The translations under genes and the position numbers were made by a program. A DNA stretch of 22,605 nucleotides, from positions 1 to 22,605 of the IMG/VR virus record IMGVR_UViG_3300027857_000191; one strand, given 5' to 3'. Positions 71 through 21,837 of this stretch are shown here, one piece after another (within the stretch, counting starts at the first letter, position 1; each line of letters begins with the position of its first letter). Source of the DNA: a virus. The notes under the pieces are model-generated. The model did no database searches. It had not been told where the DNA came from and saw only the letters and a list, made by a program, of their open reading frames with translations.

Positions 71-1537
71 CTAGCGGCCTAACCAGCCAGAGGTGTCTTC
101 CCGCCGAGAACCCAGCGCGCCAGGAAGCAGCGCGTTGAGCGTGCCCAGCATGGTGCTTCGCGGCTTGGCAATCTTGCAGGTAACGGCGCCAGTCTTCATT
201 CCACTGGCCACGCCGAAGTAGCAGAAGGCGTCGCTGGCATGGCTATGCTCGTCATGCTTCGGCTTGTCTGCAGTCTGCAGAATGCGGCCCGTGTTGGGAT
301 CAGTCTTACGGACTTCGTACTGATAATGCTTGAGCGCGTGCAGACCTTCGTGGCAGCGCTTGGCGTCGAACCAGCAATTTGCGAACACGGTTCGCCCAGC
401 ATTGATCTTGTCAATATCGCTCAGCCTGGGCACGATCCGCACATGGAAGCCTAGGGCCTCCAGCTGCTCCTGAATGCTGCCCCTAGAGCCCAGCTGCTTG
501 GCCTTGCCGTCGTGCGGAAGCCAGAGCGTGCCGTAGACGTAAGCCCGCTCTTGCATCTTCTTGGCATAATGGTCGATGTACTTCAGCCGATTTTGATAGA
601 AGTCAATAACATGCCACTCGAAGCCGATCTGTTGCACGAACCAGATACTGGTCATATCGCCGCGCCCCAAGTCGAAGTAGCAATTCACAGGATAGCCGCG
701 CTGATAGGGGACGCTGGTGATCCTATCCTGGACGAACGCTTCCCGCAGCTCATCGGCGAAGATCGCGCCCTCCAGCACCTTGCGCGTATGGCCCTCCCAG
801 ACATGGAGGTAGGCATCCAGGTCGCGGCGTTTTAAGTCTTCCATCTCCGAGCGCAGCACTTCTGGGAACCACGGATTATCACGCCAAGTGCTGGTCACCA
901 CATAGGCATTCGGATATTCCTTGCACTCCCAGCCGTCAGGCAGATCACTATGGTAAGTCCGGACTTTCTCCAGTCCATCAGGATTGACGACAAAGCGCTG
1001 ATAAATCTCGTCATCCTCCTGGTCTGGATTGAAGGTAAACCACAACTCGCTGTCCTTCGCGCGAATGGTCGGAATGAGCACTTCCAGCGAGTAGCGCGTC
1101 AGTTTGTCGGCCTCCTCAAGCCAGCACTTTGTGACGCCCTCATAGCTCTTGATCTTGGTCACGTTATGCCTAATGCCCTCGAAGGCAAATTCAGTCCCCT
1201 TAGTCGGCCCAACGCCGTAGATGCCCTGTTGCTGCACGTCGTACAGGTAATTCATTCCCATTAGGCTGATCTGATCAGCCAGCAACTTGTGAACGCTGTC
1301 CTTAATGCTGGCCTGCAGCTCGCGAGCACAGAGCACGCGCTCTTGGCCACTTAGCCCTTGGATCAGCAGCGCACGCGCGACGCCCCAGGAGCGGCCAGCA
1401 CCTCGGCCGCCCTTCAGCACTTTGTACCTCTTGGGCTTGAAGAGCCACTGGAGCGCTTCAGGAAAGTCGGGCGAAATACTGGCGATTTGCTCGCCCATGG
1501 AGAGGCTCTGGGGCTGCCGGGGGAGAAAAAGGGCCAC
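71..1537 (-). CDS. terL: Terminase large subunit (DNA-packaging ATPase/nuclease)
   Basis: This is the packaging motor subunit: ATP hydrolysis translocates DNA into the prohead and the C-terminal nuclease cuts concatemers. The 488-residue length is typical. Visible motifs are a Walker A-like GGRGAGRSWG (43-52), a Walker B WLEEAD (139-144) and a coupling motif WFTFNP (166-171). An RNase H-like nuclease follows, with acidic residues in YFDLGRGD (287-294), PHDG (341-344) and HASDAF (433-438). The pattern fits the Terminase_3/PBSX-type group. The Walker A has Arg where Lys is canonical. The GTG at 1537 has no obvious ribosome site, and an in-frame ATG at 1498 (residue 14) is an equally good start. 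It follows an exported protein gene and precedes the portal candidate. Confidence 0.95.
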   Translation of the reverse strand: MALFLPRQPQSLSMGEQIASISPDFPEALQWLFKPKRYKVLKGGRGAGRSWGVARALLIQGLSGQERVLCARELQASIKDSVHKLLADQISLMGMNYLYDVQQQGIYGVGPTKGTEFAFEGIRHNVTKIKSYEGVTKCWLEEADKLTRYSLEVLIPTIRAKDSELWFTFNPDQEDDEIYQRFVVNPDGLEKVRTYHSDLPDGWECKEYPNAYVVTSTWRDNPWFPEVLRSEMEDLKRRDLDAYLHVWEGHTRKVLEGAIFADELREAFVQDRITSVPYQRGYPVNCYFDLGRGDMTSIWFVQQIGFEWHVIDFYQNRLKYIDHYAKKMQERAYVYGTLWLPHDGKAKQLGSRGSIQEQLEALGFHVRIVPRLSDIDKINAGRTVFANCWFDAKRCHEGLHALKHYQYEVRKTDPNTGRILQTADKPKHDEHSHASDAFCYFGVASGMKTGAVTCKIAKPRSTMLGTLNALLPGALGSRREDTSGWLGR

Positions 1538-11629: not shown

Positions 11630-11664
11630 CGCTCTGGGCGCATAGGTGCCCCGCGCCGGGCGCA

Positions 11665-11684
11665 TAATCACGCGACCGTGATTA
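11665..11684. promoter_or_regulatory. Perfect 8-bp dyad, operator or hairpin
   Basis: TAATCACG (11665-11672) and CGTGATTA (11677-11684) form a perfect dyad with a CGAC spacer, in the 150-base gap after the gene ending at 11629. It overlaps a weak promoter-like pair TTAGCA (11682-11687) and TGCTAGCCT (11703-11711). No T-run follows, so an operator is more likely than a terminator. Confidence 0.45.
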
Positions 11685-11779: not shown

Positions 11780-12016
11780 ATGACCACGATCACGAGGCAA
11801 GTCATAGAGACCGCACTCGACACAGGGCAAGTCGAAGTCGCATTGGTCAACGGCCGCTGGTGGAGACTTCGCCGCAACGGCAAGACCCAGACGTGAAAAA
11901 CACGGCCGGGCGAATTTCGCATTCCAGTCAAGGCGGGCCTTCGTGCATTCGGCGAGATCACCGATATGAATATGGCCGATGCAAGCCTGTTCCGTATCGT
12001 TAAGGTGCGCTCATGA
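11780..12016 (+). pseudogene. Small conserved phage gene interrupted by in-frame TGA at the Trp position
   Basis: The frame from the ATG at 11780 gives 38 residues (MTTITRQVIETALDTGQ..., then NGRWWRLRRNGKTQT) and stops at TGA (11894-11896). Read on in the same frame it continues KTRPGEFRIPVKAGLRAFGEI... to a second TGA at 12014-12016. The phage family I recall has RNG-x-TQTW-KTRP-x-EFRIPVKAGLR in one chain, so the TGA stands where tryptophan is expected. The second stop overlaps the next start (ATGA), as at other real junctions. TGA ends many neighbouring genes, so it is not recoded generally. A nonsense mutation, sequencing error or programmed readthrough (TGA followed by A is leaky) are the options. 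Confidence 0.7.
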
Positions 12017-12114
12017 CCCGCCGGGACTACGTTCTCATCGCGGACGCCATGGCCCGCACAAACCCAAACTTTGACCGCGACCGCTTCGTCGCAGCCTGCG
12101 GGGTGCGCAAATGA
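12013..12114 (+). CDS. Tiny conserved phage protein (33 aa)
   Basis: ATG at 12013 overlaps the TGA ending the interrupted frame, and its own TGA overlaps the ATPase start at 12111 (ATGA at both ends). The product reads MTRRDYVLIADAMARTNPNF and ends DRDRFVAACGVRK, matching a common small phage protein (pattern DYV.IA.A......P.FDR.RF..ACG). Function unknown. The family resemblance and the two exact overlaps make it credible despite its size. Confidence 0.75.
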   Translation: MTRRDYVLIADAMARTNPNFDRDRFVAACGVRK

Positions 12115-20778: not shown

Positions 20779-21026
20779 TGCCCCGCAGCCTCTTCAAGTT
20801 CGACGTTCGCCCTGGCGGTTGCTGGAACGGCAAGGTGCGCCGCTACCTGCGCGCGGCGGGTCTAGATGCACCAGCATTCTTGACCGACGAAATGCGTCAG
20901 CGGCATGTGCATCCCAGGCACAGGCGCCAGATGCACGTTGTGGCGCCCGTGCCAGTTACAGCGCCCAGCACGCCAGTCAGCCCCTTCGCTCTTCTCGGAA
21001 AGAAGCCCAGTGCCCCAGCCAGTTAA
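20778..21026 (+). CDS. Hypothetical basic protein with Pro-rich tail
   Basis: An 82-residue basic protein (MPRSLFKFDVRPGGCWNGKV...), with RRYLRAAGLDAPAFLTDEMR and a His/Arg-rich segment (QRHVHPRHRRQMH) followed by a Pro/Val/Thr-rich tail (APVPVTAPSTPVSPF). The start overlaps the previous TGA by one base and the end overlaps the ATPase gene by 17 bases. No known family. Tail composition suggests a flexible, partner-binding end. Confidence 0.7.
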   Translation: MPRSLFKFDVRPGGCWNGKVRRYLRAAGLDAPAFLTDEMRQRHVHPRHRRQMHVVAPVPVTAPSTPVSPFALLGKKPSAPAS

Positions 21027-21837
21027 ACTCATCGTGGCCAGCGACAGCGGAATGGGCAAGACTGGCGCGCTGGCCAGTCTGGCCGCAGCGGGTTATTCGC
21101 TCCGCATAGCCGACATGGACAACAACAGCGGGATACTGAAAGGTCTGCTGCTAAGCGATCCGAATAGCCCCTACTTGAAAGCCAACAAGGATGTTGGGAA
21201 GATGCTAACCAGTGTGGTAGCCATCAGTGAGGAGCGAGGACTGATCGGAGTGCCCCCGAACGCTAAGATGGGCATTAAGAAGGCTACGGCGTGGCTCAGA
21301 CTCAGTTCGCTGCTTGAAAACTGGGACGACGGAATGCAGAAGCTCGGGCCGATTACCAGCTGGACGACCCAGGACGTTCTAGTCATCGACACGTTCACGA
21401 AGGCCAGCCGGGCGGCGATGAACTTCCACTTGTCGCTGAACGGAAGGCTTAACCAGAAGCCCACACTCTACGACTTCGGCGATGCCCAGGAGCTACTTCG
21501 CACGTTGCTCGACATCATCTGTGCGCCCGAGGTCGGCTGCAACGTCGTGCTGAATTGCCACATCGACAGGGGCGAAACGAAGTCCGGCGTGCCCACGGAA
21601 TTTCCAATGAGCATTGGCAACGCCCTCGGTCCCCAGATCGCCACGTACTTCGGCAGTTTGCTGCAACTAGTTAACCAGGCCAAGGGGATTGGCGCAGCAC
21701 GTATCTACGAGCGGAAATTCATCACGGTGCCCGCTAGTCCGCTGGGCGTGAAGACTTCCGCGCCCTTCAGCGCTCAGGCCGAGTATCCACTACAGACTGG
21801 CCTAGCGGATTACTTTAAGGCAGTCAGAGGAGAATGA
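21010..21837 (+). CDS. Sak4-like RecA-fold ATPase (AAA_24), recombination mediator
   Basis: A 275-residue P-loop ATPase with SDSGMGKTG (Walker A, 11-19), IADMDNNSG (33-41), VLVIDTFTK (Walker B, 123-131) and VVLNCHIDR (179-187), the order seen in phage Sak4/AAA_24 proteins that promote single-strand annealing or recombination. The GTG at 21010 is chosen because the fold begins almost at once; the frame is open further upstream but runs through the previous gene. The ribosome site is weak (AAAGAAG), so coupling is probable. With the Cas4-like nuclease it likely forms the phage recombination module. Confidence 0.85.
   Translation: MPQPVKLIVASDSGMGKTGALASLAAAGYSLRIADMDNNSGILKGLLLSDPNSPYLKANKDVGKMLTSVVAISEERGLIGVPPNAKMGIKKATAWLRLSSLLENWDDGMQKLGPITSWTTQDVLVIDTFTKASRAAMNFHLSLNGRLNQKPTLYDFGDAQELLRTLLDIICAPEVGCNVVLNCHIDRGETKSGVPTEFPMSIGNALGPQIATYFGSLLQLVNQAKGIGAARIYERKFITVPASPLGVKTSAPFSAQAEYPLQTGLADYFKAVRGE

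Follow-up and report, generated by a model that had tools for sequence, protein, structure and literature searches.

Does an in-frame TGA that stands in place of a conserved tryptophan codon in a small phage gene mark a stop that is read through, or a nonsense change of a more ordinary kind? The window analysed here, i.e., the whole stretch of 22,605 bases, is a single IMG/VR virus record and represents part of the genome of an uncultured tailed phage. On its plus strand a frame opens with the ATG at 11780, runs for 38 codons to a TGA at 11894-11896, with AAA directly 3' of it, and continues for 39 more sense codons to a second TGA at 12014-12016, the translation of 11780-12016 being MTTITRQVIETALDTGQVEVALVNGRWWRLRRNGKTQT, a stop, KTRPGEFRIPVKAGLRAFGEITDMNMADASLFRIVKVRS and a stop. 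Translation confirmed both the position and the reading of the in-frame TGA given in a preliminary description of this DNA, and the four-base overlap of the terminal TGA with the next start, also claimed there, was seen at 12013, where the two codons share the bases ATGA. The same ATGA overlap joins the end of the 33-aa ORF at 12013-12114 to the start of an AAA-ATPase gene at 12111. The features concerned are:

11780..12016, plus strand: interrupted 78-codon gene of an uncharacterised phage protein family with the motif RRNGKTQTWKTRPxxFRIPVKxGL (translation, homology).
11780..11896, plus strand: upstream half, 38 codons and the premature TGA, with the predicted helix and the first two predicted strands only (translation, predicted structure).
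11894..11896, plus strand: premature TGA in place of a Trp codon that is TGG in 59 of 59 homologues (alignment, homologous loci).
11897..12016, plus strand: downstream half, free of further in-frame stops until the terminal TGA and under purifying selection in comparison with the nearest homologue (translation, codon comparison).
12013..12114, plus strand: 33-aa ORF with the motif NPxFDxxRFxxAC, between the interrupted gene and the AAA-ATPase gene (ATGA overlaps at 12013 and 12111; counterpart in a relative).

The interrupted product, with its TGA read as Trp, retrieved 15 IMG/VR loci when used as a query. Alignment A1, comprising 14 sequences (the window row with TGA read as W, the other 13 rows unaltered), was then used for a wider IMG/VR search, which yielded 59 homologous loci. 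The Trp column put forward in the preliminary description proved invariant in A1, and the site codon was TGG in all 59 tblastn-confirmed loci and a stop in none, with a Lys codon next in 54 of them. Of the two peptide patterns behind the 59-locus scan, one is located 3' of the site and matches with or without the Trp, so that stop-bearing copies could have been found. A degenerate motif search with TGA gave 18 matches, all in unrelated frames and none in the homologous frame, while the same search with TGG gave 13, each of them in a contig that had already been retrieved as a genuine homologue; the check for related phages carrying TGA at this position, suggested earlier, was negative. A near-exact search across the site, in which the changed base could be A or G, returned no other record, indicating that this phage has been sampled once only. 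When the stop was replaced by X the product still matched its nearest homologue with E = 1e-32, hence the homology across the stop site is not due to chance, and both halves form one continuous frame in each homologue aligned across the site; the idea that the two halves might always be separate genes was tested on these homologues and did not hold. From these comparisons the Trp is invariant among the sampled homologues and the stop private to the window record.

The window product is homologous to the conserved core of the RRNGKTQTWKTRP phage protein family on both sides of the site and carries a stop codon in the column of the Trp that follows the TQT motif; as judged from the alignment, it belongs to this family only as an interrupted copy. 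Members of the family are frequent among environmental phage contigs (the 59 IMG/VR loci, L052-L110). No credible relative of the interrupted gene turned up when 50,697 annotated phage records were searched at the DNA and protein levels, the window protein matched nothing in Pfam or PHROG, and scans of genome contigs gave no homologue. A by-product of the analysis is a small, well-conserved environmental phage protein family, found on 59 viral contigs and credibly matched by none of the annotated phage records searched.

Outside the site, the gene offers seven single-transition routes to a stop, four of them at Trp27 and Trp28, and an intact Trp39 codon adds two more, i.e., with the site intact six of nine routes sit in three Trp codons. 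A G-to-A change would therefore ordinarily be expected to put a stop exactly at a Trp, and as Trp codons supply most of these routes the coincidence is no evidence for readthrough or recoding. Caution is needed with similar cases, since a single transition predicts just this outcome, a TGA in frame where a Trp is conserved.

The history of the frame was examined by codon comparison with the nearest homologue (L002), over 35 aligned codons on each side of the stop. The downstream half, which is the conserved core of the gene, showed 18 synonymous and four nonsynonymous codon differences (pS 0.74, pN 0.08), the upstream half 10 and 14, respectively (pS 0.58, pN 0.32). On a rough neutral estimate, a window branch free of selection ever since the split would by itself have gathered about 43 nonsynonymous changes, vs. 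about 6.5 observed on both branches together. The pS and pN values of the downstream half imply translation and selection through most of the history since the split, and at the level of codons this half was under strong purifying selection until recently; dS is near saturation, so that the comparison gives no more than a loose limit on the age of the stop. The data fit a recent stop and a bypassed one alike.

AlphaFold2, run on A1, predicted a single small domain with fair confidence (mean pLDDT 87, pTM 0.72), with a predicted helix at residues 6-15 and predicted strands at 18-21, 27-32, 46-52, 56-61, and 71-73, on both sides of residue 39. Since one predicted domain spans the site, a product of 38 residues would have only part of the fold, the stop costing three of the five predicted strands and the invariant P43, P49, and K51. 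The short (38 aa) and long (78 aa) forms envisaged in the preliminary description fit poorly with this result, the halves being parts of one domain rather than a core and an optional extension. No match in the PDB or viral fold searches reached E ≤ 0.001, no solved relative of the family protein was found, and the best PDB matches, Tudor-like and Hfq/Sm-like small barrels, had low TM-scores, too weak for a function to be assigned. A separate downstream gene was considered and rejected, the first in-frame start after the stop (ATG, residue 63) leaving only a 16-residue tail; a GTG at 11893, overlapping the premature stop in another open frame (11860-12003), was taken as chance because the family conserves the 11780 frame. 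The interrupted gene is accessory, a record 75% identical at the neighbouring AAA protein (L017) having no match to it, and in the best reading it is a dispensable phage gene.

The surroundings of the gene were also inspected. The 33-aa ORF is probably real, as 18 of its residues match, at 61% identity and with a weak E of 4e-4, sequence lying directly before the AAA gene of the relative; further weak matches occur in other phage contigs (L092, L094, L058, and L007), some of them also near a gene of the RRNGKTQTWKTRP family. The AAA ATPase at 12111-13538 matches PHROG 249, labelled "porphyrin biosynthesis" (E 4e-42), and has relatives in Sinorhizobium, Rhizobium and Mycobacterium phages. The intergenic stretch at 11630-11684, before the interrupted gene, contains a direct repeat of 15 nt, whose copies CGCTCTGGGCGCATA and CGCGCCGGGCGCATA are 22 nt apart, together with a perfect inverted repeat of 8 nt (TAATCACG/CGTGATTA), a possible operator. 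The terminase large subunit (Terminase_3; 71-1537, minus strand) shares about 50% identity with its nearest counterpart, that of uncultured Manatee Spring Caudoviricetes.

Among the ways in which a full-length product could still be made, a general reading of UGA as Trp in host or phage, or a suppressor tRNA encoded by the phage, deserves almost no credence. The in-frame TGA itself is all that speaks for such a reading, and it is contradicted by several plus-strand genes of the window that end in TGA at the codon matching the end of their counterpart in a collinear relative (L050/L051, from the same record as L017); in one further gene (20905-21837) the window has TGA and the counterpart TAG. 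These shared termini bear out the earlier statement that TGA acts as a true stop elsewhere in the window, and general recoding is excluded on the same ground; a tRNA search found none in the 22,605-base window, which is part of the phage genome, nor in the 36 kb of the relative. Functional readthrough, in which a near-cognate tRNA-Trp would read UGA-A at some rate and yield 38- and 78-aa products, has more in its favour. UGA followed by A is a leaky context, and a simple leaky UGA needs no stimulatory 3' RNA structure. Insertion of Trp at UGA is documented for the A1 protein of Q-beta at a rate of about 1 in 15 (PMC8067240). Purifying selection on the downstream frame would also be expected if the UGA were regularly read through, which counts against a nonsense reading, yet a recent change accounts for it equally well. 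Conservation of the stop at the same codon, expected of a gene with programmed UGA readthrough, was found in 0 of 59 loci, and the short product ends within a single predicted domain, which sets it apart from a coat protein that is complete before its extension begins. Compared with shuffles, the RNA around the stop and 3' of it showed no unusual structure (z = +0.39 and +1.27), and an Rfam search of the window gave no match. The "readthrough candidate" of the preliminary description, lacking the stop in homologues, a recognisable 3' structure and a tRNA, is accordingly regarded as very improbable. Even less probable is that a leaky UGA, recently acquired in a small single-domain protein, was kept as a translational throttle and lets through a little full-length product by Trp insertion.

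A private nonsense change or a base error, and not a programmed element, is thus very probably what the TGA represents. If the TGA were an error of sequencing or assembly, or a minority variant taken as consensus, the Trp codon would be intact in the population and the gene normal; we regard this as a serious possibility, though clearly not the likeliest. The window is a single record, its change occurs in no other, the frame has no other flaw and was under selection until recently, and the site adjoins an A run (TGAAAAAC), a plausible place for a miscall. Nevertheless, substitution errors are rare in assembled consensus sequences, and none of the other conserved plus-strand genes tested against the relative is interrupted, which marks the premature stop as an isolated event and the record as not visibly error-rich. 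A real, recent and private nonsense mutation in an accessory phage gene is the best explanation and, in our view, somewhat favoured overall: the stop is private, the invariant Trp is one transition away, and the frame is otherwise intact and recently selected, all in keeping with the "fresh nonsense mutation" first proposed, while the lack of any further decay of the frame tells against it. A G-to-A transition in the Trp codon, real and present in the phage population, would have put a premature UGA into the 78-codon gene; translation would mostly end there, the resulting 38-residue fragment would be non-functional, and the overlapping start at 12013 may be less strongly coupled to translation of the gene.

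The locus resembles the coat/A1 system of Q-beta in that a UGA interrupts the frame of a phage gene, coding sequence follows it, and the residue inserted would plausibly be Trp. In Q-beta, however, the short product is already the complete major coat protein, to which readthrough adds an extension (PMC8067240), whereas the stop in the window cuts a single small predicted domain and is found in no relative. Within the RRNGKTQTWKTRPxxFRIPVKxGL family the window member alone has the stop, the W being invariant in the 59 loci. The closest likeness is to an ordinary nonsense mutation, or recent pseudogene, in a phage accessory gene: a single transition in a Trp codon with the remaining frame intact, uninterrupted homologues, and a gene not found in the collinear relative, with no difference found between the two cases.
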